DNA of 52,900 nt from an uncultured Opitutia bacterium (lineage in GTDB: Bacteria > Verrucomicrobiota > Verrucomicrobiia > Opitutales > Opitutaceae), in contig CAIUOU010000090.1 in NCBI GenBank assembly GCA_903900845.1, positions 1 to 52,900 on the forward strand, in the 5' to 3' direction. The position numbers and the translations under genes were made by a program. A model generated the notes under the pieces. That model worked only from the letters and a program-made list of their open reading frames with translations. It did not search any database and had not been told where the DNA came from. Positions 2,958 to 39,026 of the stretch are shown in pieces; within the stretch, counting starts at the first letter, position 1; the number at the start of each line of letters is the position of its first letter.

Positions 2958-5540
2958 TCACTTCCGCCGGAACAACTCGCTCTGCACGACCTCATGCACC
3001 AGCGAGCGCACGCCGTGACCGCGCGCGCGGGTCCGCGCGAGAATCGCCTCCACCGCGGCGCGATCGCCGAAGCGCACCGGCGCCCCCGTGGCGTAAACCA
3101 CCAGTTGCCGCACGAGGTTCCGCGCGATCTGGGCCTCGTCCTCGAGCAGTAGGCGCTTGAAATCCCGCACGTCGGTGAAGGGTTTACCCCCGGGGGTCTC
3201 GCCGGCGCTGTCCACCGGCAGCGCCAGATGGAAGGCGAACTTCTGCCCTCCTCGCCCGATGCCGGGCGCCGCCTGCGCGGGTTCGCCCATCGCCCGGTAG
3301 CGCTCGCGGAACCCGCCCATCACATCGAAGCTCTCCAACGCGAAGCCAGGCGGGTCGATCTTCACATGGCAGGACGCGCAGTTCTCCAACGTGCGGTGCT
3401 TCTCCAGCTGCTGGCGGATCGTCGTCGCGCCGCGGATGTCGGGCTCCACCGCCGGCACGCTGGGAGGAGGGGGCGGCGGGGGCTTGCCGATGAGGCGCTC
3501 CATCACCCACGCGCCGCGCACCACGGGCGAGGTGGTTGTGCCGTTGGCCGTCACCTTGAGGACCGCCGCCTGCGTGAGCAGTCCGCCCCGCATGCTGTCC
3601 GGGGGCAACGGCACGCGGCGCAACGCGACGCCCTTCACCGGCGGCAGGCCGTAGTGCAGCGCCAGCTTCTCGTTCAGCAGCGCGAAGTCGGCCGCCACCA
3701 GCGTGCGCGCCGGCAGGTCCTCCCGTAGCAACTCGCGGAAAAAGAGGCGCGTCTCCTCCAACGCCGACTCCGCCAGAAGGTCGTCCAAATAGTAATCGGG
3801 GTAAAGAATCTCGTCCGGCGCCGTCGCCACGATCCTCCGCAGGTCGAGCCAGTGGTCAAGGAACGCGTCCGTGAAACGGCGCGCGCGGGGATCGTCGAGC
3901 AGGCGCTCCGTCTGCGTCCGCAGCACGGATGGTTCCCGCAACCGGCCCGCTTCAGCCACCGCGCGCAGTTGGGCGTCCGGCGCGGAATTACCCAGGAAAA
4001 GCGCGAGGCGCGTCGCCAGCGCGTGGTCGTCCAGCGGCCCCGGCCGCGCGTCGACCGAAACGAACTCGGGTGAGCACAGCACCGCCGTGTACGCCGCGAT
4101 CATCGCCTCCGCGAAACCCCCGCTCGCGCCGAGCGTGTGCTCGAACACCGGCAGGAAACGCTCCACTTCCCCCGCCGGCACCGGGCGCCGGTAGGCCGCG
4201 CGCAGGAATCCTTCCAGCAGCCGCCGCGCGTCGGCGCGGGGATTGGCGGAGACCACTTCGATCCCTTTGCCGCCGGCAGCCGGGTCCCGCACCGGCAGGT
4301 CGCCGAACAACAGCCGATGGCCCGCCGTCGGCCACGCGTCGAGCAGGGGCCCCTCGACTTCCAGCCAACGGAACACCACCCCGGGCTGGCCGTCCTTCTC
4401 GGCGAGCGGGTTCTGCCATCGCCCCGCGCCCGGCCGGGACCGGAAAAACCGCGCCGCATCGGGCCGGATCGTCTCGCCGTCCAGCAACCACACGTCGAGC
4501 TCGTGCACCGCGGGCTCCGGCGTCACATCGAATTTCCCCAGCCACCGCAGCTGCCGCGGGGGAATCTCGGAGTAGATCGTCAGCGGTTCCTCGCGGCGGC
4601 CCGGGGAAATGTCGTCGAGGTCGGGGATGAACCAGCGGTCGGGCCGGCCCTTCACCGGCTTCGAGGGGCCGACCCAGACCGAAAACGCGTTGAACCGCAG
4701 CCGGTAGCGTCCCGCCTGCGGCGTCTTGAAACCGTTGAACTTGGGCTCGAGCGGCTCGTAGGCGCTGGCCACCAGGCCCACGCCCTCCAGCTCCCGCGTC
4801 GCGGGATCGGCCGCGCCGGCGGTCACGGGCGCCTTGCCCGCCCGCACGTCAGGTTGGGCGGCGCGATCCAGCACCGGGAAAGTCGCGCGCTCCGGCGCGG
4901 TGTTCATCACGGTGAACTTCATCGGCCCCGTGAAGCTTCGCTGCTCGCGGGCGTAGTAACGCGTCACCTTGGTCTCCGGCCGCGCGTTCTGCCGCGCGAT
5001 GACCTGCCGCAGCGCGTACTCGGCCGCCCCGAGGTAGCGCGCCATCTGCACATGCGAGACGTCGAGCGCCTCGCCGACCTTGTTGAAACGAAAGGCCTCG
5101 CCGTCCTCCGGCAGCCATTCCTTCACCTGCAGCCAGGGGGCGTCCAGCAGGTCACGCACGGCGTTCTCGTACTCTAGGCGGTTCAGGCGCCGGCGCGTCG
5201 CCCGCCCCTCGGCTGACAACCGCGCCCGCTCCGCGGCGACCAGCTCCGAGGACAACCCGCCGAGAAAAGCCTCCAGTTCAGCCGCGTCCGGCCGCGGTTT
5301 TTTCGCGGGCGGCATCTCGCCGTCAGCCACGCGGTCGTGCAGCTTCACCCAGAAATCGTGGTTGCCCGGATCCGCCGGTCGGAAGGCCAGCGCGTCGAGA
5401 TCGAGATCTCCTTTTTTCTCCACGGAATCATGGCAGGAGGCGCAGTGCTTCCCGAGGAACGCGCGCACGGGCGACGGGGGCGCGGCGAAGACGCAGGGGA
5501 ACGCGGCGGTCAGGACGAGAAGGGAAACGACGGGGCGCAC
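2958..5540 (-). CDS. DUF1592/DUF1588/DUF1585-family planctomycete-type cytochrome protein
   Basis: An 860-residue exported protein. A signal peptide ending near residue 20 is followed by a heme-type motif CASCH (Cys33, Cys36, His37) as in the planctomycete cytochrome C domain. Next come DUF1587-like sequence ([16 protein letters not shown]), a long DUF1595/DUF1592 region, and a DUF1588/DUF1585 C-terminal half. That half holds a second CASCH (Cys721, Cys724, His725) followed by [12 protein letters not shown], the usual signature. The start is GTG at 5540; the nearest upstream ATG is out of frame. The downstream gene is its usual partner DUF1552. The pair probably acts in the periplasm in a redox or degradation role, but this is inference because the families have no assigned reaction. 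Confidence 0.88.
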
Positions 5541-11774: not shown

Positions 11775-14700
11775 TCAGGGCACCTCGTAGATCTCGAGGA
11801 GGGCGGTGCCGGAGGAAACAGAGTCGGTGCCCACCTGAATCGTGTAAACCCCGGCGGGTAGCGCCGCGAGAACCGCGGCGTCCTTGCTACCCGCGGGCAG
11901 CGCGAACGCGCCGGCCCGCAGCGCGGCGGCGGCGAGATCGGGCAGGCTCGAGACCCAGTTGTCGTTTCCGCCCAGCAGCTGACCGGCGCTGTCGTAGAGG
12001 GAAATGGAGGGATCGGCCACGGTGTTGGAGGCGCCGAATTGCGCCATCGCCGGCCCGACGCCGCGCAGCAGCACGCGGGCGCCGGCGCCGCCATCGAGCA
12101 CGAAGCCGCTGATGAGCGCGCCGGAACCGGCCGCGGCCGGGCCGCGGCTGGACACGTTGACGAGCCGCGCTCCGTCGCCCGAGCCGGCGTCATAGATCTC
12201 GACGAGCGCGATACCGGAACGGGCGGCCGCGCCCCCCCCGACCTGCACGGTGTAGACACCGGGGGAGAGCGTCACCAGCGCCGCGCTGTCGGCGCTGCCT
12301 GAGGCGAACGGGAAGGCGCCGGTGCGCGTGGCGGCGGAACCTGCCTCGCGGCTCCAGCCCTCGGTGCCGGCAACCAGCGTGCCGCCCGAGGCGTAAACCT
12401 GCAGCGAGGTGGCGGTGAGCGCGCCCTCGACCCCGAAGGCGCCCAGCGCGGGACCGGCCCCGCGCACCAGCACCGACCTGGGCTCCGTACCAGCAATCGC
12501 GAAGCCGAGGATCAGCGGGTTGCCCGGCGATACCTCGCCCCGGGTGGAAAGATTGACGAGCCGCGCGGGACGGGAATCCGCGGCCCGCACGGTGTCGCCC
12601 ACCGTGATGGAGACCGTGCCCTCGCCCGGCACCGCGGTCGTGAGGGAACGCGGGATGATGCCGGTGGCGACGTCGACGCCCGGCTGGGCGGCGGCCTGCG
12701 CCGGAGTGGAGGTGCTGTTCGCCGGAATGCCCAAACCGGGCACCGGGCTCGCGTAATTGAACTCGCGGATCACCTCGTAGAGCCCGGAGGCGACCCCCGC
12801 GACCGAAGGCGTGACCGCGCGGGCTCGGATGTAGAAGACCGCGTTGGCGGGCAGGTTCGCACCCGCCACCTGCCAGTTCGCTGTGCCGGGAGCACGGACT
12901 CCTTCGCCGAGCCGGGTCCACGTGACGCGATCCGGGGAGATCTCAAAGAGCACACTGGAAATTTCCCCGATCGCACCGGAGCGGTTGAGCAACACCGAAC
13001 CCCGGTTGGCGGCGACGCCCAACACCTGGGCACCGGAAGCCTGCGCCGAAAGCCGGGCGATCCCCGGGCGGGCCACTCCGCCCACCGCGCTGAAGGACCC
13101 GCCGATCATCAGGCGCCCATCCGCCTGCAGCGCGAGCGCGGTGACCGCGCCGTTCGGGCCGGGGGAGAAAGCGTTGTCCGCCGACCCATTCGCGTTCAAC
13201 CGCACGAGGCGCGAGGGGCTTCCCGCGACGAGCACCTTGCCGTCGGCCTGGAGCGCCAGTGCCACCGCGCTGCCAGCGGGGGCGGAGAAGGAGGAGTCGG
13301 CCGAACCGTCGGCGTTGAGACGAGCGACCCCGGCTTGGTTGACCGCGTAAAGGACACGTCCGTCGGCCTGCACGGCGAGCGAGGTGACCGGTCCACTCAC
13401 GCTGGCGGAGAAAGAGGCGTCGGGGGCACCGGCGGCGGAGAGCCGGATGATGCCGCCCGCATGGCCGACCAACACGCTCCCATCGGGCTGCAGCGCCAGA
13501 GAGCGCACGGCGGAAGGAGCGCCGGCATTGTACGAGGCGTCGAAGGTGCCATCGGCGTTGAACCGGGCGAGGCGCTGGCGGGTGACGCCGTTGATGCTGG
13601 TGAAGGCTCCGCCGACAATCGTCCGGCCATCGGATAGGGCCAGAAGCGCGTGCACCGCGCCGTCGGGCCGCGGCTGGAACGAAGTCGTGACCGAACCATT
13701 GTCGTTCAGCATCGCGAGATTCCGGGCGGCCACGCCGCCGATGCCGGCGAAACTCCCGCCCACGAGAATCGAGCCGTTGAGTTGGAGATCAGTGAAGCTG
13801 CCGCCGACGAGCACCGTGCCGTCGGGGCGGGCGGCGACCACGCCGATGTTGCCGCGGATATCGGGATTGAAGTTGAGGTCGATCGCGCCGCCGGTGTCGA
13901 CACGGGCGAGGCGGTTGCGGCCCACCGGGGCTCCGGTGCCGCCGGGCTGGAGCGTTGTGAACGCGCCGCCGAGGAGCACGAAGCCGTCGGATTGGACCGC
14001 GAGCGTCGTCACCGTGCCGTTGGGGTTGGGATTGAAGGACTGGTCCACGGCGCCGTCGCTGTTGATGCGCGCGAGATTGTTACGGAGCACCAGCGCGCCT
14101 CCGGCGGCCGGTTGGAGGGAGGTGAATGACCCGCCGAGCAGGAACTGACCGTTGGTGAGGGCGACGACCGCGTTGACCGGGCCGCTCGCGTTGGGGTTGA
14201 AGTTCTGGTCGAGCGAGCCGTCCGAATTGAGTCGAGCGACGTAGTTGCGCGTCACGGCCGTCGAGGTGGCGTTGGGCACGAGACTGTTGAAAGAGCCGAC
14301 CGCAACCACCTTGCCGTCCGCCTGAAGGGCGAGGCCGTTGACGGACGCGCTGGGCGAGGGGTTGTAGTTGGCGTCGATCGTGCCGTCCTCGTTCACGCGC
14401 GCGAGATAGTTGCGGGCGACGCTGGTCGAGGTGAGGTTGGGCGTGAAGCTGGTGAAGTCCCCGCCGACGACGAATTTGCCGTCGGTCTGGCGCACGATGC
14501 CGGCGATGCGGGCGTTGGCGCCCGGGTCGAAGGTCACATCAAGGGACCCGTTGTTGTCGATGCGCGCCATGCGGTTGCGCGCGGTGCCGCCTACGGTGGT
14601 GAAGGAGCCCGTGACAACGATACGACCGTCGGGCTGCACGATGATGCCGGTGACCGCCCCGTTGGGCGCGGGGGTGAAGGAGGCGTCGAGCGCACCGTCG

Positions 14701-17543
14701 GCGCGGAAGCGCGCGAGGTTTCCGCCAGCCGCGTTGCCCAGGTTGGCAAACGATCCGCCGACGAGAAGCCGGCCTTCGCGGTCGATGGCGACGGCCGCGA
14801 TCTCGCCGCTCAGCCGGGCGCCCGCCGAGGCGAAAGCCGCGCGCAGGGTGCCGTTCGCGTTCAGCCAGGCGAAGCCCGAGAGCTGCGTGGGCACAGGCGC
14901 GCCCGCGGTGCGGACCACGATGGCGTGCACCGGGCCGTCGGTGGCGAGCACCGGGCTGAAGTCGGGATCAGGCGTCCCCTCCGAACGGAAGCGCGCGATG
15001 TTGGTGCTCTTCGCACCGCCCAGATCGGCGAAGCTGCCGACCGCAACCACCCGGCCGTCAGGTTGCACGGCAAGGGCGCTTACCACCGCGCCGGAGGCAC
15101 CGCCAGCGGAGGCGTCGAACCCGGTGTCAACCTGGCCGGAGGACAGGAGCCGCGCGAAATTGCGGCGTGTGACGCGCAATGCGGCGCCAACCGGCTGCAG
15201 GGAAGTGAAGGCGCCGCCCACCAGCAGGCGGCCGTCGGCCTGCAGGCGCAGGGAGTCGACGCGGTTGCCTGCCTGCTCGCTGAGGTCGAGATTGAAGGAG
15301 GCGTCGACGGTGCCGTCAGTGTTCAGGCGGGCCGCGTACTTGCGAAGGGTCCAATCAGCGGCCCCGTTGGGCTGCAGGGTGGTGAATGCCCCGCCGATGA
15401 CGAGCCGCCCGTCGGACTGCAGGACCGAGGTCAGCACATTGCCGTTGGCGTTGGGATTGTAGGCGAAGTCGAGGTTGCCCTCCGGCGTGAACCGCGCGAG
15501 CCGGTTGCGCACCGGCACACTATCGGTCGAGCGCCCGCTCGCGTCGGTCGTCTTGTCGAGCTTACCGTCGGTTCCGACCGCCGTGGAGAAGGCGCCGCCG
15601 GCCACCACCTTGCCGTCCGACTGCAGCTGCAGGGTGCTCACCTGGCCGTTGAGCGTCGGACTGAAGGCGTCGTCGAGCTTGCCGTCCGCGCCGCTGATGC
15701 GGGCGATGAAATTCCGCGAGACGAAGGAAGCGTTGATATTCCCGAAAGCTCCCGGACGAAGGGCGCTGAACAAGCCGCCAAGGATGATCTTGCCGTCGCC
15801 CTGGACCACCAGCGCCGAGACCGTGGAATTGGGATTGGGATCGAAGGCGGAGTCGATTGTGCCGTCGGCGTTGAGGCGTACCAGATTGGCGCGCGCCTCC
15901 GGTGTCGAGGAGCGGCCCGGGGTGACGAAGTTGAACGTGCCGCCGACGAGGATCTTGCCGTCGTTCTGCAGCACCAGAGTGCCCACCTGGCCATCGAAGT
16001 GCGGGTAAAACTCGGAGTCGATCGAGCCACCGGAATTCAGTCGCGCGAGGTGGCGCCGGGTCTCCCCGCCGATTTCGGTGAACGCGCCGCCGACGATCAC
16101 CTTGCCGTCAGGCTGGAGCGCCAGCGCATAGACGCGCCCGTTCAAAACCGGGGCGTAGGCCGGGTCCACGGTGCCGTCGGCGTTGAGCCGCGCGACGTAG
16201 TTGCGGGTGAGCCCAGCGATGCTGGTGAAGGTGCCCGCCACCACGATTTTCCCGTCGGACTGCGTGACGGAAGCGAGGATGCGGCCGCCCGCGTCGAGTT
16301 CAAACGAGGCGTCGAGCGAACCGTCGGCGGCGAGGCGCACGAGGCGGTTGCGGACCACCGCGGAGGTGGATCCGGCCGGCGTGGCGCGGGTGAACGATCC
16401 GCCGATCACAAGCTTGCCGTCGGCCTGCTGCACGACGGCGTTGACCGCGGCATTCAGGGTCGGCGCGAATCCGTTGTCGAGGGAGCCGTCGGGGTTGAAG
16501 CGGGCCACGAAACCGCGGCTCACCGACGTGGCGCCGCGACCCCACACCGCGGAGAACGCGCCGCTGATCACGATGAGGCCATCGGATTGGACGATCACCG
16601 AGGACACCGCGCCGTCGGCGCGCGGATAGAACTCGGAGTCGAGCGTGCCATCGAGGTTGAGCCGGGCGACACGGGAACGGCCGGCGGGGTTGACGTCGGT
16701 CGGGGGCTGAACCGTGGTGAAATAACCGGCGAGCAGGACCTTGCCGTCACGCTGCACCGCGAGGCTCGTCACGCCGTTGTTGGCGTTGGGGTCGAAGGCG
16801 GGATCGACGGAGCCCGACGGGGTCAGGCGAGCGATGCGGTTGCGCGTCACCGCGGCAGCCTCCCCGGCCGGCTGCAGGGAAGTGAATCCGCCCCCGACGA
16901 GGATCCGGTTCTCCACATGCAGGGCCAGCGCGAGGACCATTGCGTTGGGGTTCGGATTGAAGGCGGCGTCGAGCGTGCCGTCGGCGTTGAAACGCGCGAG
17001 GTAGTTGCGCGTCACGGCAGCGGCCGCGCCGGCGGGCTGGACCGTGGTGAAGGAGCCGCCGGCGACGATCCGGTTGTCGGCCTGCAGCAGCAGGGCGTGA
17101 ACCTGGGGTTGGAGTTGCCCGCCAAGATTCGGGTTGAAGGCGGCGTCGACCGACCCGTCCGCATTGAGCCGCGCGATCCGGTTGCGGGTGACGGCGGCTC
17201 CACTGGCGCCGGGCTGCAGGGAGGTGAAGTCGCCGCCGACGACGACGCGGTTGTCGCGCTGGACGAGCAGCGCGCGTACCGGGGCGTTGGGGGACGGGTT
17301 GAAAGCGGTGTCGACCGACCCATCCGCGTTGAGCCGCGCGAGGTTGGAACGCGCTACGCCGCTGACCGAGGTGAACTGCCCGCCCACCAGAAGCTTGCCG
17401 TCGGGCTGGGAGACGACCGTGAAGACGGTGCCGTCGACATCGGGGCTGAAACCGTCGTTCACCGAGACGGGCTGCGCGAAAGCACTGAGGGCGGCGAAGA
17501 GCCCGGCCAGAAAGATCGGGAAAGAGGGCGTCAGTCGGCGCAT
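11775..17543 (-). CDS. Giant secreted delta-60 repeat protein
   Basis: A 1,922-residue exported protein. A signal peptide (FLAGLFAALSAFAQ) is followed by about 27-28 tandem repeats of roughly 45-60 residues. Each repeat has Q-x-D-G-[KR]-x-x-V-G-G-x-F, then R-x-x-[IL]-A-R-x-x-x-D-G-[ST]-x-D, then F-x-P: delta-60 repeats (TIGR02608, DUF5122), thought to form beta-propeller-like arrays. One unit near the C-terminal third is chimeric, with the GGSF core appearing twice in close succession. A linker domain follows, then two tandem copies of a domain of about 130 residues (starting ARLVNLSTRG and ARLVNVSSRG, each ending near an EIY motif) that is frequent at the C terminus of Verrucomicrobial secreted proteins. 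I chose ATG 17543; ATG 17573 would add ten residues. The role is probably surface-associated or extracellular; the ligand is unknown. Confidence 0.87.
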   Translation of the reverse strand: MRRLTPSFPIFLAGLFAALSAFAQPVSVNDGFSPDVDGTVFTVVSQPDGKLLVGGQFTSVSGVARSNLARLNADGSVDTAFNPSPNAPVRALLVQRDNRVVVGGDFTSLQPGASGAAVTRNRIARLNADGSVDAAFNPNLGGQLQPQVHALLLQADNRIVAGGSFTTVQPAGAAAAVTRNYLARFNADGTLDAAFNPNPNAMVLALALHVENRILVGGGFTSLQPAGEAAAVTRNRIARLTPSGSVDPAFDPNANNGVTSLAVQRDGKVLLAGYFTTVQPPTDVNPAGRSRVARLNLDGTLDSEFYPRADGAVSSVIVQSDGLIVISGAFSAVWGRGATSVSRGFVARFNPDGSLDNGFAPTLNAAVNAVVQQADGKLVIGGSFTRATPAGSTSAVVRNRLVRLAADGSLDASFELDAGGRILASVTQSDGKIVVAGTFTSIAGLTRNYVARLNADGTVDPAYAPVLNGRVYALALQPDGKVIVGGAFTEIGGETRRHLARLNSGGSIDSEFYPHFDGQVGTLVLQNDGKILVGGTFNFVTPGRSSTPEARANLVRLNADGTIDSAFDPNPNSTVSALVVQGDGKIILGGLFSALRPGAFGNINASFVSRNFIARISGADGKLDDAFSPTLNGQVSTLQLQSDGKVVAGGAFSTAVGTDGKLDKTTDASGRSTDSVPVRNRLARFTPEGNLDFAYNPNANGNVLTSVLQSDGRLVIGGAFTTLQPNGAADWTLRKYAARLNTDGTVDASFNLDLSEQAGNRVDSLRLQADGRLLVGGAFTSLQPVGAALRVTRRNFARLLSSGQVDTGFDASAGGASGAVVSALAVQPDGRVVAVGSFADLGGAKSTNIARFRSEGTPDPDFSPVLATDGPVHAIVVRTAGAPVPTQLSGFAWLNANGTLRAAFASAGARLSGEIAAVAIDREGRLLVGGSFANLGNAAGGNLARFRADGALDASFTPAPNGAVTGIIVQPDGRIVVTGSFTTVGGTARNRMARIDNNGSLDVTFDPGANARIAGIVRQTDGKFVVGGDFTSFTPNLTSTSVARNYLARVNEDGTIDANYNPSPSASVNGLALQADGKVVAVGSFNSLVPNATSTAVTRNYVARLNSDGSLDQNFNPNASGPVNAVVALTNGQFLLGGSFTSLQPAAGGALVLRNNLARINSDGAVDQSFNPNPNGTVTTLAVQSDGFVLLGGAFTTLQPGGTGAPVGRNRLARVDTGGAIDLNFNPDIRGNIGVVAARPDGTVLVGGSFTDLQLNGSILVGGSFAGIGGVAARNLAMLNDNGSVTTSFQPRPDGAVHALLALSDGRTIVGGAFTSINGVTRQRLARFNADGTFDASYNAGAPSAVRSLALQPDGSVLVGHAGGIIRLSAAGAPDASFSASVSGPVTSLAVQADGRVLYAVNQAGVARLNADGSADSSFSAPAGSAVALALQADGKVLVAGSPSRLVRLNANGSADNAFSPGPNGAVTALALQADGRLMIGGSFSAVGGVARPGIARLSAQASGAQVLGVAANRGSVLLNRSGAIGEISSVLFEISPDRVTWTRLGEGVRAPGTANWQVAGANLPANAVFYIRARAVTPSVAGVASGLYEVIREFNYASPVPGLGIPANSTSTPAQAAAQPGVDVATGIIPRSLTTAVPGEGTVSITVGDTVRAADSRPARLVNLSTRGEVSPGNPLILGFAIAGTEPRSVLVRGAGPALGAFGVEGALTATSLQVYASGGTLVAGTEGWSREAGSAATRTGAFPFASGSADSAALVTLSPGVYTVQVGGGAAARSGIALVEIYDAGSGDGARLVNVSSRGPAAAGSGALISGFVLDGGAGARVLLRGVGPAMAQFGASNTVADPSISLYDSAGQLLGGNDNWVSSLPDLAAAALRAGAFALPAGSKDAAVLAALPAGVYTIQVGTDSVSSGTALLEIYEVP

Positions 17544-17780
17544 AGAGAACGGGAAAACAGCGGCAAAGGACATGGAAAGGTTGGGCCGGATGGATCGGCG
17601 GGGATAGGAATCGGGAGAAATTAGAGGCCGAGGTTGGGCGTCGCGGTGACGCAAGGCAAGCGGTGGCTCCGGGAATCACCGGCGGGGGCGTTCCGTCGCG
17701 CCGGAGAGCGCTCGCGTGAAGGTGAGAGCGCGGGAAGACCGGCCGGTTCCGCGGAAACGCGGCCGACCTGCGCGGGGCGC

Positions 17781-30978: not shown

Positions 30979-31611
30979 ATGGAGACCTTTTTTGCGGTGC
31001 TCTATGTTGTCGTCCTGATCGGGGTGGTGCTGCTCCTGATGATGATGCGGGAGCGCAAGGTCACCCGGAACCTCACGTCGCTGGCGGCGCGGACCGGCCT
31101 GCGGTTCCGCCCATCCAAGGAGAATGAGACCGGAGTCGGCTCCAGCGTGGAAGGCGAGTTCCAGGGGCGGCCGGCGCGGTTCTGGACCTACGCGACCGGC
31201 GCGGGCAAATCGCGGACCGAATGGGTGGCCGTCTCGGTGCGGCTCGCGGTCGGATCGCGGCTGACGATGCAATTGAAGCCGCAGGGCTTCGGCACGAAGG
31301 TCGCCGAACTTTTCGGCGCGAAGGAGATCGAGGTGGGTGATCCGCGGTTCGACGGCGAATGGTTCATCCGGACCAATGCGTCGGCCACCTGCCGCGCCGC
31401 GTTGCTCCCCGAGATCCGAGAGCGTTTGATGACCGCCCGCCTGACCGGAGCCCGCGGGATGTTCACGATCGAAAACGGAGCCGCGCGCTACCACGAGGCG
31501 GGCTCCTACTCCAGTGAACGCACGACCGCGCGTCTCGAGTTGATCCTGCCGCTGCTGCGGGACCTTGCCGAGGCCGCGGAGGGGAGCGAGGCCGCGCTGC
31601 CGGTGGCCTGA
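30979..31611 (+). CDS. Hypothetical membrane-anchored protein
   Basis: A 210-residue protein of unknown family. It has one N-terminal transmembrane helix (FFAVLYVVVLIGVVLLLMMM, 4-23) followed by basic residues, then a soluble domain on the cytoplasmic side by the positive-inside rule. The soluble part alternates strands and helices, with a stretch like FQGRPARFWTYATGAGKSRTEWVAVSV that recalls small DUF3137-like or phospholipid-binding anchors. I cannot place it. It lies 60 bases after the SpoU gene. Codon use matches the neighbours, so the gene is real. Confidence 0.7.
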   Translation: METFFAVLYVVVLIGVVLLLMMMRERKVTRNLTSLAARTGLRFRPSKENETGVGSSVEGEFQGRPARFWTYATGAGKSRTEWVAVSVRLAVGSRLTMQLKPQGFGTKVAELFGAKEIEVGDPRFDGEWFIRTNASATCRAALLPEIRERLMTARLTGARGMFTIENGAARYHEAGSYSSERTTARLELILPLLRDLAEAAEGSEAALPVA

Positions 31612-31671
31612 GCACCCGCACCGCGCAGCGGGTGGGTTTGCGAAAGGCCGGGCGGCGACTTCGCTCCGCGC

Positions 31672-32691
31672 GTGGATCCCGTCTCCCATGTCGCGCTGGG
31701 TGCCAGCCTTGCCCATGTCTGCTGCGGCGCCCGTCTCGGGCGCTCGGCGGCTCTCGCCGGCGCGCTCGCGGGGCTGGCGCCGGACGCCGATGTCTTCATC
31801 TCGAGCGCGATCGATCCGCTCCTGGCGGTGGAACATCATCGCGGCTTCACCCATGCACTGGTGGCCGTGCCAGCCGGAGCGGCGCTCGTGGCGGCGTTGT
31901 GGCTCGGTTCCTCGAAGTGGCGCGACGGAAGGCGCTGGACGATGCTCTGGGGCGCCGCGGCGCTCTCCTACCTGAGCCATGTGCTGCTCGACGCGGCCAC
32001 CAACTACGGCACGCAGCTGCTCTGGCCGTTCTCGAACCAGCGCGCGGGCTGGGACTGGATCGCGATCGTGGATCCGGTTTTCACGCTGCCCCTGCTCGCC
32101 GGACTCGGGCTCGGGCTCCTTCGGAGCCGCCTGCGCCCCGCGGTGCTCGCGCTGGTTTTCGCCGGATGCTATCTGCTGATCGGCGGCGCGCAGCACGCGC
32201 GCGCGGTTGCGGCGCAGCGGGAACTGGCGCGGAAGCGCGGCCACACGCCGGAGCGGATCGAGGTTATGCCGACGCTGGGTAACAACGTCGTCTGGCGCGC
32301 GCTCTACGTCCACCAAGGCCGCATCCACAGCGATCGTATCCGCGTGGGCTGGTTCGCCCGTCCCGCCATCCGCGAAGGCTGGTCGCTCCCGTTGGCGGGG
32401 ACCGCGGACCTCACCGCCGGCGAACGCGTCCGGAACCGCCGCCAATCCTTCGAGCGATTCGCCTGGTTCTCGGACCACTGGGTGGCGCGCAGCCCGGCCG
32501 ACGCCTCCGTGCTGGCCGACATGCGCTACTCGCTCGGCGCGGACGCCTTCGATCCGATCTGGGGTATCCGCTTCACCGCGGAGGGCGCCGTCAACGAGGT
32601 GGAATGGATCAACCGTTCCCGTGACCGGCGGATCGATCCGAGAGAGCTTTGGCGCGAAATCACCGGGGCGGATGAACGCTACGGCCAGTGA
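31672..32691 (+). CDS. YdjM-like membrane-bound metal-dependent hydrolase family protein
   Basis: A 339-residue protein of the YdjM/DUF457 family. The N-terminal half holds several membrane helices and the conserved metal-type motifs DPVSHVALG, LAPDADVF, HHRGFTHAL and LSHVLLDAATNYG, whose His and Asp residues are the predicted ligands. The C-terminal 170 residues are soluble. Members are annotated as inner-membrane hydrolases; the reaction is unproven. The start is GTG 31672, which immediately opens the conserved DPVSH motif. It lies between two small genes of unknown role. Confidence 0.83.
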   Translation: MDPVSHVALGASLAHVCCGARLGRSAALAGALAGLAPDADVFISSAIDPLLAVEHHRGFTHALVAVPAGAALVAALWLGSSKWRDGRRWTMLWGAAALSYLSHVLLDAATNYGTQLLWPFSNQRAGWDWIAIVDPVFTLPLLAGLGLGLLRSRLRPAVLALVFAGCYLLIGGAQHARAVAAQRELARKRGHTPERIEVMPTLGNNVVWRALYVHQGRIHSDRIRVGWFARPAIREGWSLPLAGTADLTAGERVRNRRQSFERFAWFSDHWVARSPADASVLADMRYSLGADAFDPIWGIRFTAEGAVNEVEWINRSRDRRIDPRELWREITGADERYGQ

Positions 32692-32757
32692 CCGCGGCCA
32701 CGGACGCCGAAGGGCGCGGACTTGAGGAAGGCTCGCCCTGCGGATAGGCGATTCCGG

Positions 32758-33114
32758 ATGGAATCACCGACTGAACTCCTCGGCCGCTGGCAGATGATCC
32801 GCGCCGAGCTCGCCGGCGAACCGGCCCCCGAGTTGGTGACGAGCCGAATGGTCCTTGAGCTGAGTGCCGGGCATTACGAGGTGGTCTATGCTGGGGAGGT
32901 CTCCGACGCCGGCGAATGGTCGGACGGACCAAAGGCGGGAACGCTCACCCTACTGGGGAAACGCGGCCCCAACGCGGACCGCCGGATCCCTTGCCTGTAC
33001 CAGCTGGCCGGCGACCGGCTGCGCGTCTGCTACGGGCTCGACGGGACGGAGCCCGCGGATTTCGCCACCGCCGGCCTGGCGCAACGCTACACCGCCACCT
33101 ACCGCCGACTGTAA
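32758..33114 (+). CDS. TIGR03067-like small domain protein
   Basis: A 118-residue protein resembling the TIGR03067 domain. LLGRWQMIRAELAGEPAP at the start, a central strand-rich part and RIPCLYQLAGDRLRVCYGLDG at the end match the pattern of these lipocalin-like domains, frequent in Planctomycetes and Verrucomicrobia. No signal peptide is visible, unlike many members. I chose ATG 32758 over an in-frame upstream start because it opens the domain. Its stop is 15 bases before the REP-like element. Its function is unknown. Confidence 0.65.
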   Translation: MESPTELLGRWQMIRAELAGEPAPELVTSRMVLELSAGHYEVVYAGEVSDAGEWSDGPKAGTLTLLGKRGPNADRRIPCLYQLAGDRLRVCYGLDGTEPADFATAGLAQRYTATYRRL

Positions 33115-33129
33115 ACACCCCGCCCCAAA

Positions 33130-33200
33130 GGGGTCAGGGCGTTGAACGTTTACGAACGGGTCGAACAGGCGCGTCGAAAAACGTTCAACGCCCTGACCCC
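33130..33200. repeat. REP-like palindromic element, copy 1
   Basis: A perfect 22-bp inverted repeat (33130-33151 and 33179-33200, arm beginning GGGGTCAGGGCGTTGAAC) encloses a 27-base loop. Short outer hairpins flank it (CCCC-AAA-GGGG on the left, CCCC-AT-GGGG on the right). The reverse complement matches copy 2 at 37568 almost end to end, including part of the loop (GACGCGCC). It sits between convergent genes and contains the stop codon of the minus-strand gene. It resembles REP/BIME elements mobilised by REP-associated tyrosine transposases; no such transposase is in the window. Confidence 0.85.
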
Positions 33201-34930
33201 ATGGGGGAGTCGCGCAGCGCGATGAAGTCCGCCCGGGACGCCTCGTCCTCGGCGACGCGCAGGCCGAGCGCGATCAGGGCGTCGGCTTGCTCCGCGTGGC
33301 CGTGGCGCGCGTAAAGCCCGGCGGCCTTGCGGACCAGCGGCACGCGGCGGGGGAAAAGCCTCACGCCCTCATCGAGGACCGCGAGATGCCGCAGGGTCGG
33401 CAACGCGTCGGAAGCGGTCCAAGTGTCGGCGATGAGTTCGTAGACCTCGGCCAGGGGTGGCGCGGCGCCGCGCGCCGCAAACAACGCCTCGAGCACGCGC
33501 GCGGTCTGCGCGGTGTCAATCCGGCCGCCGGCCCCGGCCGGGCGGGCGAGAAACTCCGCCAGGCGCAGCCGGGCCAGCTCCTGGTTAGCGCGCGGCCGCA
33601 CCGGCCCGAGCGCGACGGCCGCCTCGAGTAGTTCGCGGGCCGCGGCGTCGTCGCCTCCGTCGACCTCACAGAGACCCATCACGGCCAGCAGGCGCGGGTC
33701 GCGGTGATCGCGGTCATAGGCGCGACGGAGCGTGCGCCGCGCCTGCTCGAGGTATTTCGGCGCGAGTTCCGCGGAGATGCCGCGCACGTAGGGCACCTCG
33801 AGCCGCTCCCAGTCGCCCTTGATGCACGCGATCTGAAGGTCGGAAGCGTTGACGAGCGCGAAGGGCGGCAGCTTCGCGGGGCGCGCGGGACGCAGGCGGG
33901 TGCCGCGGCGCGCAGCCTCGGGCAGGTAGGCGGCGAGCCGACGCCGCGCCTCGTCGTAACCGAAGCCCAGGCACTCGATGAACAACCGTTCGCTCGCGCC
34001 CTCGGCGGCGCTACGTTCCACGAAGCGCCAGAGCCCGGCGCGGTGCGCCTGCTGGTCGGCATCAAGACCCCAGCGCACGAGCAGCGCCGCGTGCGCCTGC
34101 CACGCCCGCGCCGGCTCGACGCCTTCCGGCAGGGAAGAATCCCCCGCGGCCGGCAACCGCTGCTGCAGGATGTCGGGCACGCCCCAGACGGGCGGGGGGA
34201 AGGCGGGATCCTTGACCTGTGACGCCGTGGGTGGCGGAGCGAACCAATCCAGCGGCGCGAGGTTGAGCTGGCCGCTGCCGTACTCGGTTTTCTGGTACAA
34301 AGTCAGCAGCCCGCCCAGGAACCAGGCCGGCAGCGCCGGCAAGCGCTGCCGGGCGAGGAAGTTGATGTAGTCGTAGGTGAGGGAGAGCCGGTCGGCGTCA
34401 ACCTGATCCCGGCGGACGATCATGAAGATCGCCATCACATCGCGGTCCGAGAGACGCAGGTTGGGCAGGAAACTGTAACGCGGTCCGGCCGCAGGAGGCC
34501 GAAACCCGCGGCCGGCCGGCAGGGCAACCGGGTCCGGCGCGGCGGTATCGGCCCGGCGGAGCAGCTGGCGGATGACCTCCTGCGAGGCGGCGGGCTGGAG
34601 TTCCTCGTCGTAGAGGATCAGCAGCGGCGGCACCGAGGACTGCCAGCGGAGGGAAGGCGGCAGCATCTCGCCCAGCAGGGCGTGGAGCTGGAAATGCGCC
34701 TCGACGACGCGGCGCGTGGCGGAGTCGCCGCAGCGGGAGAGGATCTCGAAACCCATCGCCTCGCCGTGGCGCCAAGGCGGCCCCTTGGCGGCCTCCTCGA
34801 CGAGAAAGGGCGGCAGCGAGACCGCCGTATCCTGCGCGGACGCCTTGCCGGGAGCGAGGACCAGCAGCGCAAGCCAGAGCGCCACCCGTCGCCAACCCGC
34901 CGACTCCCGTCCCTGCCCGGATCCGCTCAC
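33185..34930 (-). CDS. Exported pseudo-peptidase-like protein with helical-repeat C terminus
   Basis: A 581-residue protein with a signal peptide (VALWLALLVLAPGKASA). Residues 181-210 look like a peptidase-MA/DUF1570-type zinc peptidase in which the metal site is lost. Where such proteins have HExxH, this has YDYIN (186-190), and LPAWFLGG (199-207) stands where LPxWxxEG is expected. The C-terminal half (about 370-570) is Ala/Leu/Arg-rich helical, TPR-like. The GTG start at 34930 overlaps the stop of the upstream Gfo/Idh/MocA gene (GTGA), indicating translational coupling. The last residues (MGSGR) and the stop lie in the REP-like element, so the natural end may have been replaced. The function is not known. 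Confidence 0.72.
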   Translation of the reverse strand: MSGSGQGRESAGWRRVALWLALLVLAPGKASAQDTAVSLPPFLVEEAAKGPPWRHGEAMGFEILSRCGDSATRRVVEAHFQLHALLGEMLPPSLRWQSSVPPLLILYDEELQPAASQEVIRQLLRRADTAAPDPVALPAGRGFRPPAAGPRYSFLPNLRLSDRDVMAIFMIVRRDQVDADRLSLTYDYINFLARQRLPALPAWFLGGLLTLYQKTEYGSGQLNLAPLDWFAPPPTASQVKDPAFPPPVWGVPDILQQRLPAAGDSSLPEGVEPARAWQAHAALLVRWGLDADQQAHRAGLWRFVERSAAEGASERLFIECLGFGYDEARRRLAAYLPEAARRGTRLRPARPAKLPPFALVNASDLQIACIKGDWERLEVPYVRGISAELAPKYLEQARRTLRRAYDRDHRDPRLLAVMGLCEVDGGDDAAARELLEAAVALGPVRPRANQELARLRLAEFLARPAGAGGRIDTAQTARVLEALFAARGAAPPLAEVYELIADTWTASDALPTLRHLAVLDEGVRLFPRRVPLVRKAAGLYARHGHAEQADALIALGLRVAEDEASRADFIALRDSPMGSGR

Positions 34931-36408
34931 GCCTTGCCGGAGAGATCGGGCACCGTGAACGGTGCGCGGTATTGGCGGGTGAGGAGCGGATTGGCGGCGG
35001 CGGCGAACTCGCCCGTGAAGCGCTCCGTGCCGGGCGCGATTTGCAGCAAGGCGCCGAGCGCGAGCGGCGTGGCCTTGAGATCAACCGCGTTGGTGCCGAG
35101 GTGCTCCATCATGCGCCCGCACGCCTCGGCAAGCCCGGCGTTGCCGCGGATCCGCTCACGCAGGGCGTCCGGTTGGGCGGCCTTGCCCAGCACATGGGAA
35201 ATGTTGCCGAGGTGGCAGAGCGCGCTGGAGACGTGGCCGTCCTCGATCGGACCGCAGAGGTCGGCCGTCTTCCGGCTTCGCACGACGTCGATGAAGTTCT
35301 GCATGTGGCGGTCGACGCCCTTGAACTCCCGCACCACCTTGCCCGATTTGTCGTAGGCGGTGGCGGTGAAGTAATTCGTCGAGACGACGCTGCCGCCCTC
35401 GCAGTCGATCACGTTGCCGACACCCACGCCGCGGAAGTTGTCCATCGTGTCACCACGCCGACCACCACCGGCCGTCGCACCCGCCTTCGCGGGCAGCCCG
35501 CGCACCTCGAAGATCAGCGGGGCGCTGGCGTAGTCGTGGATCACGACCTGCGTGTTGGGAGTGTCACCGTCATCGACGTAGCCCAGGCGGCCGCCGACGC
35601 TGAGGGTCGTGCGCGGCAGGCCGGTCTCACCGAGGAACCAACGGGCGACGTCCATCTGGTGGATACCCTGGTTGCCGACGTCGCCGTTGCCGGTGACGTG
35701 CACCCAATGCCAGTCGTAGTGCAGCCGCAGGCGGCGTGGCGGGACGAGCGGGGCCGGCCCGCACCAGAGGTCGAAGTTTATGTTGGCCGGGATCTGCAAC
35801 GGGGCGTCGGCGCGGCCGATGCTGTCGCGACGCTTGTAGCAGAAACCGCGCGCCGCGGTGACGCGGCCGAGTTGCCCGGAACGCACCCACGCCACCGCCT
35901 CCCGGAGGCCCTCGCCCGAACGGATCTGCGTGCCGCACTGGACGACGCGGTTGTGCCGCGCGGCGGCGTGCACCAGCTGGCGGCCCTCCCAAACGTTGTG
36001 GGAAACGGGCTTCTCGACGTAGACGTCCTTACCCGCCTGGCAGGCCCAGACCGCCTGCAGCGCGTGCTGATGGTTGGGCGAGGCGATGGAGACGGCGTCG
36101 ATATCCTTCTGCGCGAGCAGCTCGCGCAGATCGACGTAGGTCCGCACCTCCGAACCCTCCTCGGCGAGCGACTTCTTGGCGCGGGCGAGGACGGCGGAGT
36201 CGACGTCGCACAAGGCGACCACGCGCACGCCCTTCACGCGCTGCAGGCTCTGGAGATGGTTGCGGCCGCGGCCGTTTAGGCCGACGACGGCGACGCGGAT
36301 GTCGCCGTTGGCGCCGGCGGACTGCGCCCAGGTGCGGGCGGAAAGAGCGGCCCCGGCGGCGGCGAAGGCGGAGGAGCGGAGGAAAGAGCGGCGATCGACG
36401 GGGTTCAT
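34927..36408 (-). CDS. Tat-exported Gfo/Idh/MocA family oxidoreductase
   Basis: A 493-residue oxidoreductase with a Tat signal (DRRSFLRSSAFAAAGAAL, cleavage near WAQS). The Rossmann motif RVAVVGLNGRGRNH follows, then the VEKPVSHNVWEGRQLVHAA block and a C-terminal beta-sheet domain with GNQGIHQMDVARWFLG, which carries the catalytic-type His of the family. It would act in the periplasm on a sugar or polyol with tightly held NAD(P). It is the middle gene of a three-gene operon: 28 bases after the DUF6807 gene and overlapping the next gene by four bases. ATG 36408 is well placed. The substrate is unknown. Confidence 0.88.
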   Translation of the reverse strand: MNPVDRRSFLRSSAFAAAGAALSARTWAQSAGANGDIRVAVVGLNGRGRNHLQSLQRVKGVRVVALCDVDSAVLARAKKSLAEEGSEVRTYVDLRELLAQKDIDAVSIASPNHQHALQAVWACQAGKDVYVEKPVSHNVWEGRQLVHAAARHNRVVQCGTQIRSGEGLREAVAWVRSGQLGRVTAARGFCYKRRDSIGRADAPLQIPANINFDLWCGPAPLVPPRRLRLHYDWHWVHVTGNGDVGNQGIHQMDVARWFLGETGLPRTTLSVGGRLGYVDDGDTPNTQVVIHDYASAPLIFEVRGLPAKAGATAGGGRRGDTMDNFRGVGVGNVIDCEGGSVVSTNYFTATAYDKSGKVVREFKGVDRHMQNFIDVVRSRKTADLCGPIEDGHVSSALCHLGNISHVLGKAAQPDALRERIRGNAGLAEACGRMMEHLGTNAVDLKATPLALGALLQIAPGTERFTGEFAAAANPLLTRQYRAPFTVPDLSGKA

Positions 36409-36436
36409 GGGGAAAGGGGGCAGCTGGGGCGGCGGA

Positions 36437-37429
36437 TCACTTGGACGCGGAGAAGGCGCGGTACTGTTCGGCGACCTTGGAGGCCTTCTCGTCGCCGGAG
36501 TGGAAGTAGAAACGCCAACGGAAGGTGACCGAACCGCCGGCCGGGATGGTCATCTCACCCGCCTTGGGCTGGTCCTTCAGGTTCTCGAAGTCGTGCTTGC
36601 CGAAAGGATTGGCGGCGAAGAGCGCGTAATCGCGGACGTGCCACCACGTGGGGTGCCGGGGATTGGACGGGTGGTCGAAGATCGCGACGCCGTGGACCTT
36701 GCCGTCCTTGGGCCCGTGGTAGTCCACCCAGGTGGAGCGCTTGCCCCACGCGGCGGTGTTTTTGACGCCCTCCGCGTTGATGATCGTGCCGGTGCCGGCA
36801 TGTTTCACGCGTTGCTTGTTGGCGGAGTACGTGTGCGGCGGCGTCATCCACAGCGGCAAGCGGATCGCCATCGATCCCTCCTTGGTGTCGCCGAGTACGA
36901 CGGGTTTTCCTGCCGGGGCCTTCAACGTCACCTGATAATCGAGGAAGCGGCTGTCGCCGGCGGCGGTGATGCGCACCACCGTCTCGTCCGTGAGATGCAC
37001 CGCGCCATCGGGCCCGACCCAGCGGTTGCGGGCCTTGATCACGCCGGCGCCGCCCGCGACCGAGTGCTCGACCGAGTCGCTGACGATCAGGCCCTTCTTG
37101 TCACTGCCCTCCGCCCAGAAATCGATGCCGTTCACATCACCGTGGGTGAACCAGAGCGAGCGGTGATGCGGATGGTCCTCCACCTCGCCCGGCACGCCCT
37201 TCTTCATCGGGAAATTGCGGGTAAGCTGGGTGCCGTCGGCCGCCAGCACCGGGTGGAAATAGGGTTTCGGGCCTCCCTTGAAGACGTACTCGGTGAAGAG
37301 CTTGCCGCCCACCTCGACACGCACGCGATCATCGGCGCGTTTCAAGGTGACTTCAGCGGCGGGCAGGACGATGGGGAACGCGGCGGCGAGGCCGGCGACG
37401 AGACGGCGGAGCAGGGGTCGGGGGCTCAT
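36437..37429 (-). CDS. DUF6807 (PmoA-named) family protein
   Basis: A 330-residue exported protein of the family often labelled PmoA but now DUF6807; it has no relation to methane monooxygenase function. A signal peptide (LVAGLAAAFPIVLPAA) is followed by a beta-rich body. Family-like stretches are FTEYVFKGGPKPYFHPV, HPHHRSLWFTHGDVNG, SKEGSMAIRLP-type sequence and VAIFDHPSNPRHPTWWHVRDYALFAANPFG. Many members are encoded beside Gfo/Idh/MocA genes, as here. A role in handling sugars or glycosides is commonly inferred but unproven. ATG 37429 was chosen; the frame runs further upstream into the REP-like copy 2, which is not part of the gene. Confidence 0.85.
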   Translation of the reverse strand: MSPRPLLRRLVAGLAAAFPIVLPAAEVTLKRADDRVRVEVGGKLFTEYVFKGGPKPYFHPVLAADGTQLTRNFPMKKGVPGEVEDHPHHRSLWFTHGDVNGIDFWAEGSDKKGLIVSDSVEHSVAGGAGVIKARNRWVGPDGAVHLTDETVVRITAAGDSRFLDYQVTLKAPAGKPVVLGDTKEGSMAIRLPLWMTPPHTYSANKQRVKHAGTGTIINAEGVKNTAAWGKRSTWVDYHGPKDGKVHGVAIFDHPSNPRHPTWWHVRDYALFAANPFGKHDFENLKDQPKAGEMTIPAGGSVTFRWRFYFHSGDEKASKVAEQYRAFSASK

Positions 37430-37567
37430 GGTGGAGCCAGACGAACAAACCGGCCGAAGGGAGCAATAGTTTTGCCGGCCGCACCCGGGATGATCAGCCC
37501 GGGCCATCGACGCATAGGACGGGGAGCTTCGCGGCAAAAGGCCGGAGATGCAGCCGCGACTCCCCAT

Positions 37568-37637
37568 GGGGTCAGGGCGTTGAACGTTTTGGGACGCGCC
37601 CATTCAACCCATGCGCAAACGTTCAACGCCCTGATCC
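37568..37637. repeat. REP-like palindromic element, copy 2
   Basis: The left arm (37568-37589, GGGGTCAGGGCGTTGAAC...) and right arm (37617-37637) form the same palindrome as copy 1, with the outer end of the right arm changed (GATCC for GACCCC). Compared with the reverse complement of copy 1 it matches from the flanking GACTCCCC through the arms and part of the loop. The two copies are therefore inverted and about 4.4 kb apart. It lies in the 405-base gap before the DUF6807 gene; the rest of that gap holds only the terminator at 37773. Confidence 0.85.
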
Positions 37638-37772
37638 TTTTGGCGTTAACCGCGGCTGCATCGCCCGATTCTCCGACTGCGAGGACGCCACTATGCCCTG
37701 CGGTTCTGAGTTCCTGATCTCCAGATTCAACCCCGCCAGCCACCTTTTGCGCCCCGGCTTGAAGGCGGAATG

Positions 37773-37806
37773 AAAAAGGCGCGGTCCGCGAAAGGGAACC
37801 GCGCCT
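37773..37806 (-). terminator. Rho-independent terminator of the DUF481 gene
   Basis: On the minus strand, AGGCGCGGT and ACCGCGCCT form a perfect 9-bp stem with a 12-base loop, followed by TTTTTC. It begins 28 bases after the DUF481 stop. It would also insulate the REP-bracketed operon downstream from read-through. Confidence 0.85.
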
Positions 37807-37834
37807 GAGGAAAGAGGGGATTTTCAGCCAGCGC

Positions 37835-38872
37835 TCAGCGCCAGTTCAGCACCAGGCGGGTGAAGTAGGTGGTGTCCATCTTCTCCACGCCGCGACCGGG
37901 GCGGCTGTTGTAGTCGTTGGCCAGGCCGAGACGGAGCTTCCAGCTCGCGTTGGCCATGGGCAACTCGAAGAAACTCTCGTGGGTCGCACGGTAGTTGCTG
38001 AAGTCTTGGAACGCGGGCACGAGGGTCAGACGGTTCACCAACAGGCCGCTCGAAAGCTCGAGGCGGTGGGCGAAGCCGAAGTCGAGACCGGCGCTCTTCA
38101 CGTCCGTAGTCGCGGGATTCTTGTAACCCTCGTAGCGGAACGAGAGACCGAAGCGGCCCGTGAGCGTCTGCTTCTTCTGCTTGATGAAGTCGTAGCCCAT
38201 ACCGAAGCCGGCGACGTCGTAGAGCTCGATGTCCTTGATCCGGTCAAAGCCGCCTTCATTGCGGGCGTACCAGGAGTTCTTACCGGCGAAGTTGCTGGTG
38301 TAGTCCACTCCCGCCTTGAACTGGTCGGCCGACTTCACGCTGTCGGTCACCTGGCGGTCGTAGGCGAGGTAGAACTGGAGCGTGTCCGAAAGGCCCTTGA
38401 GCGTCGCGCGGAGGCTGCCGGCGGTGCCGAGCTGGCTCTTGTTGCCGTTCTTGCCCGTGACATCGACCGCGGCCTCGTAAGCCCAACCGCGCTCGAGGGC
38501 GACGAGAGCGGGATCCTTGCCGCCGGCGGCCCAGGAGGCGGCGACCTTGCCGATCTCCGAGGCGAACTCCCCTTCGGCGTTGGCGACCTTCACGTGACCG
38601 TCGCCGGACCCGGTGACCTTGCCGTCGACCCGGTTACCATTGGCGAAACGCACCGCGATGGGGGCGTCGGTATTGATGGCCACCACCTCGGCCTGCTTGA
38701 TCGAAATCGAGCCGGCGTAGGTGGTTTCGACCACGACGGCGCCGTCGTCGATCTTGACGATCTTTCCGACGATGCGGGCGCCGCCTTTGATGTCCACGGA
38801 ATCGGCGGCCAGACGGGCCGCGCCGCAGATGGCGAGCAGACAGGTGATGAGGATGCGGAGGGAGGAGGACAT
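37835..38872 (-). CDS. DUF481 (YdiY-like) outer-membrane beta-barrel protein
   Basis: A 345-residue exported protein. A signal peptide (LRILITCLLAICGAARLAA) is followed by an N-terminal strand-rich domain (ADSVDIKGGARIVGKIVKIDDGAVVV, 25-115). A DUF481 beta-barrel follows (about 130-345), with alternating aromatic strands and a C-terminal strand ending LVLNWR. DUF481 proteins are salt-induced or putative outer-membrane proteins of unclear function. I chose ATG 38872 because it opens a clean signal peptide; an in-frame start 17 codons upstream is weaker. It stands alone, divergent from the methyltransferase gene and closed by a good terminator. Confidence 0.83.
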   Translation of the reverse strand: MSSSLRILITCLLAICGAARLAADSVDIKGGARIVGKIVKIDDGAVVVETTYAGSISIKQAEVVAINTDAPIAVRFANGNRVDGKVTGSGDGHVKVANAEGEFASEIGKVAASWAAGGKDPALVALERGWAYEAAVDVTGKNGNKSQLGTAGSLRATLKGLSDTLQFYLAYDRQVTDSVKSADQFKAGVDYTSNFAGKNSWYARNEGGFDRIKDIELYDVAGFGMGYDFIKQKKQTLTGRFGLSFRYEGYKNPATTDVKSAGLDFGFAHRLELSSGLLVNRLTLVPAFQDFSNYRATHESFFELPMANASWKLRLGLANDYNSRPGRGVEKMDTTYFTRLVLNWR

Positions 38873-39026
38873 GCGTTTATGAAATAAGAGAGCAGCAAAC
38901 CGCTTCAGCGCAAAAACGGTCAACGATCAACCTTAGGCGAATTCGGAACAGCGGACCTTGGTCCCGCCTGGCCGCGAAGGGCGGCTCGACACCCACGCGG
39001 GCGACCCCTTCCCTGCCCCGCACCGC

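Follow-up and report, generated by a model that had tools for sequence, protein, structure and literature searches.

The two inverted repeats at positions 33130-33200 and 37568-37638 of contig CAIUOU010000090.1, from an uncultured Opitutia bacterium (GCA_903900845.1), bracket a block of three genes encoding a DUF6807 protein, a Gfo/Idh/MocA oxidoreductase and a protein without assigned function (the third gene). They are very likely hairpin-forming doublets that resemble the REPINs known from repetitive extragenic palindromic (REP) systems, belong to a dispersed family of terminal inverted repeats (TIRs), are probably mobilised in trans by a single Y1 transposase of the TIRYT kind encoded on another contig (C4), and neither carry nor invert the block. 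This reading builds on the observed copy number of the family, its location in gene gaps, the relation of both copies to it, a transposase locus flanked by its repeats, a gene order that is conserved where the repeats are missing, and the capture of a stop codon by the left copy. The bracket can thus be regarded as ordinary repeat placement, and the family as a clear case of GGGG-type TIRs amplified to REPIN-like numbers in Verrucomicrobiota. The window, i.e. the whole stretch of 52,900 nucleotides analysed, is the complete contig C90 of a 4.40-Mb genome in 205 contigs.

Both repeats are 71-bp inverted doublets of a 22-nt arm (GGGGTCAGGGCGTTnnnnGTTT) and are inverted relative to each other, as stated in a preliminary description of the sequence. 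The left doublet consists of an exact outer arm on the forward strand (33130-33151), a 27-nt loop (33152-33178) and an exact inner arm on the reverse strand (33179-33200). The right doublet has an exact consensus arm on the forward strand (37568-37589), a 27-nt loop of the same subfamily (37590-37616) and an arm with two mismatches on the reverse strand (37617-37638). Coincidence was rejected, with four arm matches in the window compared to 0.01 expected and none of 100 shuffles reaching four. Among the inverted repeats listed for the window, this pair is the longest (82 nt with 88% complementarity, separated by 4355 nt), with a longest perfect run of 29 nt. Common to both copies are the arms, their spacing of 27 nt, one flank (ACTCCCC) and a portion of the loop, in line with the likeness noted earlier. 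When folded as single-stranded DNA, both doublets gave strong hairpins, far beyond those of shuffled sequences (z = -10.7 and -6.2).

The interval between the copies holds only the three genes named in the preliminary description, whose wording of a precise bracket has to be given up. The right doublet is placed loosely: it lies upstream of DUF6807, separated from the chosen start (37429) by 138 bp, and on its other side the DUF481 stop codon is 196 bp away. The left doublet overlaps the third gene, with the inner arm contributing its last codons and its TGA stop codon (33185-33187), and its outer arm starts 15 nt past the stop codon (33112-33114) of a TIGR03067-domain gene. An outer 12-bp inverted repeat (GATGCAGCCGCG...CGCGGCTGCATC, 37547-37662) encloses the right doublet, which looks as if it had been inserted at the centre of an older palindrome.

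The genome-wide search for the element proposed in the preliminary description revealed scattered copies. With up to three mismatches, the arm was found 128 times (60 forward, 68 reverse), and the reversed control pattern gave no match. Arms were then collected by their core with up to two mismatches, which gave at least 146 arms in at least 60 clusters (45 stretches plus the window). Among the 146 arms, positions 1-14 are nearly invariant in this core-selected set and positions 15-18 variable. The 60 clusters comprise 32 of the '+-' type, 10 of the '+-+-' type, six single arms and 12 other patterns. As many as 139 of the 146 arms overlap no called gene. The distance to the 3' end of a neighbouring gene is at most 25 bp in 33 of 66 cases, 27 of which fall between 8 and 20 bp, compared with 5 of 45 cases for 5' ends (at most 25 bp), and in four gene calls an arm contains the upstream gene's stop codon. 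Genes were called with a codon-usage model trained on ten open reading frames (ORFs) of the window, which missed the transposase gene itself. Thirteen neighbouring pairs of collected clusters, including the window pair and the transposase locus, are at most 5 kb apart on one contig, and such a bracket is therefore not rare.

The 27-nt loop type of the window copies recurs in three further doublets (C106:34038, C135:27802 and C135:36539), with similar outer flanks in most of the five. Doublets separated by 0.3-10 kb resemble each other more in loop and inner arm than random pairs do (mean 0.31 vs 0.14; 50 simple doublets, 17 close pairs), and the window pair ranks 7 of 1225. None of 20,000 permutations reached this value, a p-value that is rough because pairs are non-independent and assembly may have duplicated one doublet (C2:86 and C183:5982). 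Either local spread or local conversion would make near copies alike. Tail-to-tail arms exactly 8 nt apart were seen in many clusters of this species (L191, C5, C57, C83, C101, C105, C110) and of its sister species (L245, L247, L241), a spacing that may mark a cleavage or joining register.

Four Y1_Tnp matches were found in the genome, and the one on C4 (16601-17563) carries arms of the family on both sides (at 16286, 16453 and 16483, and at 17549, 17579 and 17724). The gene encodes a Y1 (HUH) transposase with HFH and YIHLNP motifs, and its stop codon lies within an arm. No transposase was detected between or beside the window copies, as had been observed before, and the matching gene lies elsewhere in the genome. 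The C4 protein has no Pfam match besides Y1_Tnp at E ≤ 1 and no match in a PDB sequence search at E ≤ 0.01, and the NCBIfam RAYT model NF047646 scored 61.3 bits against a cut-off of 80. An alignment of five transposase homologues shows a conserved C-terminal block. The exact degenerate arm pattern occurs in three of 57 genomes, including the one studied here (122 places here, 38 in G036, one in G013), and the best transposase match among the 57 genomes (69% identical) lies between G036's own arms. Inward-facing GGGG[AT][CG]A[CG] motifs flank both sides of the transposase gene at six of ten loci (this genome, G036, G004, G016, G039, G041); at the remaining four (L169, L171, L172, L174), they do not flank both sides within the sequence examined. 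In other genomes of the genus (G032, G009, G004, G016, G013, G014), GGGGTCAGGSCG is enriched over the reversed control, and many of its occurrences in G032 are close tail-to-tail pairs, not head-to-head doublets. A broken transposase fragment (52% identical, two stops) is located beside an arm at C105:4012-4430 (G000), and the stretch C105:80-254 is nearly repeated at 3829-4003.

These features place the family close to the TIRs and TIRtrons of TIRYT transposases, whose GGGGWSAS-type repeats form the TIRs of these enzymes (Di Nocera et al. 2013, PMC3733652) and have been linked to transposase subclass 2.1 (PMC6006769). Arm positions 1-8 read GGGGTCAG, which fits the GGGGWSAS motif and is nearly invariant over the collected arms. 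The C4 transposase gene is flanked by repeats on both sides and close to its ends, and the collected clusters include dispersed singles, dimers and groups. Subclass 2.1 is characterised by a C-terminal helix-turn-helix, which Pfam does not detect in the C4 protein, and no REP-like sequences are reported near its genes (PMC6006769), unlike the at least 146 arms found here around one so-flanked transposase. With the REPINs of RAYTs (Bertels and Rainey 2011, PMC3116915), the family shares the architecture of extragenic inverted doublets that form hairpins in single-stranded DNA (folded for the two window copies only) and the tie to a Y1 transposase. It differs from them in the lack of a GTAG/GTGG foot and in the RAYT model score (61 bits) below the cut-off. 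The arm starts with GGGGTC, preceded by C-rich bases and then AA, and a classical REP with a GT[AG]G foot was rejected on the arm sequence. Opitutus terrae, also a member of the Verrucomicrobia, is described in PMC3733652 as highly enriched in dispersed palindromic repeats; these are GTAG-tagged, whereas the family reported here starts with GGGGTCAG.

The bracketed block is kept in related bacteria. The best DUF6807 matches in named genomes stem from metagenome-assembled genomes (MAGs) of Opitutaceae or Verrucomicrobiota. Of 41 related loci (L064-L104; contig ends limit some of these), 15 contain DUF6807, Gfo/Idh/MocA and the third gene ordered and oriented as in the window, followed beyond DUF6807 by DUF481 in 13 and, further on, by a methyltransferase in 11 of the ordered loci. 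Five further loci contain DUF6807 and the third gene without Gfo/Idh/MocA between them. None of the 15 ordered loci has an arm of the window family at up to five mismatches, and in all 80 related loci searched there is none at up to four mismatches and one match with five (L066). The sister locus L064 (genome G057, DUF6807 92% identical) holds no repeat copy in either gap around the block, though the sister genome has its own family, with 38 exact arm places, identical to the ones given above for G036, and 86 arms when one mismatch is allowed. Since the block is kept in relatives and in the sister without the copies, the copies do not define it.

The two repeat families were compared by analysing 27 stretches over the arm places of the sister, which contain 33 clusters. 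Twelve of these have both flanks collinear with those of a cluster here, two are collinear with a gap that is armless here, two flank a 3.2-kb segment absent here, three join flanks found on different contigs here, five match on one flank only, two (the second cluster of L247, and L260) are ambiguous, and seven have no convincing counterpart among the stretches compared. The 31 arms nearest to matching flanks (18 sister regions) are identical at positions 1-14 in 28 cases, a number biased upward by the core filter applied to both genomes (up to two mismatches, decayed arms uncounted), and at position 15, which lies outside this filter, in a single case. All 31 sister arms have C at position 15, and 30 of the 31 arms here have G, A or T. 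In five of the 31 pairs, the arms face opposite ways and so do not correspond; of the remaining 26 pairs, 24 have identical cores and one agrees at position 15. Over all arms, C occupies this position in 89 of 89 sister arms vs 3 of 146 collected here. Fourfold-site identity between the species amounts to 0.55-0.76 (four genes), and the transposase has an amino-acid identity of 0.685, compared with 0.79-0.95 for four other genes.

Arm order and spacing are close at L247/L206 (146, 8, 12 vs 150, 8, 13), at L252/L231 (83, 19, 82 vs 81, 16, 82, plus one extra sister arm), at the transposase locus L245/L191 and in the right part of L248/L201 (117 vs 115); in the other seven of 11 cluster comparisons, arm number or spacing disagrees in whole or in part. 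One of six loop pairs, L243/L215 (114/115 nt), joins non-corresponding arms and was dropped from the argument for common descent. The loops tested at matched clusters show no likeness beyond shuffles (z = -0.9 to 1.3), except for L248/L201 (z = 3.3-3.5). Loop inversion between the arms was rejected as the cause, as the reverse complement matched no better (z = -0.5 to 0.4, seven loops); the near-saturation of neutral sites may be enough to explain the unalignable loops.

Together, the shared sites and the species-specific base suggest a genome-wide switching of arms in place. Tentatively, and at less than even odds, many of the sites may predate the split of the two species, with their arms rewritten species-specifically in step with a fast-diverging transposase and their loops diverged to the level of chance. 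Resident copies would then be overwritten, and not only new ones added, by the transposase itself or by conversion with copies near its gene as templates. The main alternative is independent re-insertion at the same hot spots, which may hold for simple doublets and is disfavoured at composite clusters because of the matching spacings at L247, L252, L245 and L248. The situation resembles the REP orthoswitch, in which the cognate repeats differ between orthologous transposases of related genomes, new repeats spread and the old ones remain and decay (Nunvar et al. 2013, PMC3686654). It differs in that the sites are common to both species and nearly every arm has the species-specific base, so that old sites appear rewritten. 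The comparison touches an old question, namely whether palindromes dispersed in bacterial genomes evolve through new copies that transpose or through conversion of those already resident; such shared sites make this question directly testable in closed genomes. A paper by Higgins et al. from 1988 reportedly asks about gene conversion in its title. Among the literature matches listed, the arm core was not found and no title dealt with concerted evolution or gene conversion of such repeats, most subscription papers lying outside the coverage of the search.

For the doublets themselves, the C4 Y1 (HUH) transposase would act on a folded single strand, as in IS200/IS605 elements, and the doublets would settle as non-autonomous passengers in gene gaps, preferably just past stop codons. 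The window copies occupy two separate gaps at and near the ends of a conserved block without carrying it, and their proximity would follow the tendency of similar copies to be neighbours in this genome, through local spread or conversion. Several observations weigh against this account. Neither transposition events nor excision products nor traces of target sites were observed, and the sister's empty sites are not alignable to the base. In relatives other than the sister, the absence of the exact family says little about recent gain or loss. Some nearby doublet pairs (on C12 and C83) are unlike each other, and nearby pairs are non-independent. A transposase homologue is present in 35 of 57 genomes, nearly all of which lack this arm pattern, and the link between transposase and family therefore rests on the flanking arms and the closest homologue. 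Finally, the left copy was not inserted recently, since the TIGR03067 gene is followed by an arm in the sister as well, with a different gene on the other side.

This last point was followed on sister contig C46, which matches window positions 31067-33120 and then contains an arm near the position of the left copy, with the other arm of the doublet absent. The left site is therefore old, and an initial view of both copies as recent insertions no longer holds for the left one. Beyond the arm, C46 runs into a gene that looks PEP-CTERM-like by eye, whose only longer match here (94 nt, 91% identity) lies on C185, with others short and weaker. The differing gene across the repeat implies that one of the two genomes has been rearranged or misassembled at this repeat. 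The third gene of the sister precedes a formyltransferase gene (L064) that occurs in no other of the 41 loci and has its counterpart here on C17. As the TIGR03067 and YdjM genes are found in none of the 41 loci either, the downstream side of the third gene is variable anyway.

The left doublet could accordingly be a joint at which two places of the genome were connected through family repeats, and hence a breakpoint and not an insertion; this is conceivable, although the odds are against it. It would account for the changed neighbours on both sides and for the flank of the loop subfamily, which is retained on the third-gene side of the left copy and lost on the other. Comparable joints exist elsewhere: three sister clusters (L239, L241 and L250) connect flanks that are split here (C90 end/C163, C101/C196 and C110/C189, respectively), and the C50 cluster has its two flanks on separate sister contigs (L237/L251), which possibly reflects repeat-repeat rearrangements or misassemblies. 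However, the three joints lie 197-744 bp from sister contig ends, and both genomes are fragmented MAGs in which joints near contig ends are untrustworthy. Eight contig ends here are within 300 bp of an arm, compared with about 1.7 expected, which makes misassembly at repeats a serious alternative, and some repeat regions (C2/C183, C105/C27) seem to be assembly-duplicated. Moreover, the formyltransferase on C17 adjoins epimerase-like and deacetylase-like genes (named from their translations) in a cluster that looks intact, so that the rearrangement may have occurred in the sister, or one assembly may be wrong, and 12 of the 33 sister clusters are collinear on both flanks. The preliminary suggestion of a mobile or invertible segment fails for the block and stays partly alive as rearrangement, given the synteny break at the left copy and the 3.2-kb bracketed segment seen elsewhere in the sister only. 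This segment (L234, G036:C6, 2426-5655) contains one long ORF, TonB-receptor-like by its translation, and lies between two arm clusters, and its outer flanks meet at a single doublet here (C83:41791-41846).

It is rather unlikely that the doublets are transcript-end hairpins, kept for a function as mRNA stabilisers or terminators and not merely mobile. The 27 of 66 gene ends found 8-20 bp before a cluster, the strong folds and the nearly unchanged cores at sites shared with the sister would all fit such a role. In contrast, transcript-end function alone does not predict a family-wide one-base switch between species, and the right copy is situated 196 bp past the DUF481 stop codon.

There is hardly any room for an invertible segment, whose three genes would be flipped by recombination between the inverted copies. 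The inverted arrangement with its extended complementarity speaks in its favour, but a perfect run of 29 nt is short for efficient homologous recombination. In 13 of the 41 loci, the sister included, DUF6807 stays beside DUF481 and the third gene at the far end, with the block in one and the same orientation relative to DUF481 in all 13 loci that have the four genes, and no flipped state was observed among the 41 loci examined. Least probable of all is a composite element whose two copies carried the block in: although the sister-only segment indicates that repeat-bracketed segments can be gained or lost, the block and its DUF481 neighbour have a conserved order in 13 of 41 loci, and the block exists in relatives without repeats, with all 15 ordered loci devoid of the family arm. 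Both the composite transposon and the invertible segment were rejected on this conserved order. Scattered copies and an unchanged gene order in repeat-free relatives, the findings that the preliminary description had named as speaking against a mobile or invertible segment, were both obtained, and of its three options two independent REP insertions in gaps is the best supported, given the at least 60 clusters, the location of the collected arms in gaps and the cognate transposase locus.

All genes of the block are encoded on the reverse strand. The third gene (33185-34930, 581 aa) matched no Pfam family at E ≤ 0.001, and NCBIfam gave only TPR-type matches far below the cut-off, which leaves its former naming as a pseudo-peptidase unsupported; the sister protein ends with ALRAR and has no repeat at its end. 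The Gfo/Idh/MocA gene (34927-36408; PF01408, 83.4 bits; PF19051, 42.2 bits) encodes an N terminus that resembles a Tat signal by eye. The DUF6807 protein (36437-37429, 330 aa; PF14100, 245.9 bits) matches its L064 counterpart from residue 1. Outside the bracket, the DUF481 gene (37835-38923, reverse strand; PF04338) is conserved in its adjacency to DUF6807, and the TIGR03067-domain gene (32761-33114, forward strand) scored 41 bits against a cut-off of 40.15. A hairpin with a T-run past the DUF481 gene (37770-37810, GGCGCGGTTCC...GGACCGCGCCTTTTT) is similar in the sister and, by eye, looks like the DUF481 terminator. Apart from these elements, the window contains an ORF of 1959 codons (11775-17654) built of repeats of about 55 aa, with 11 copies of repeat family D1 and 17 copies of D2.

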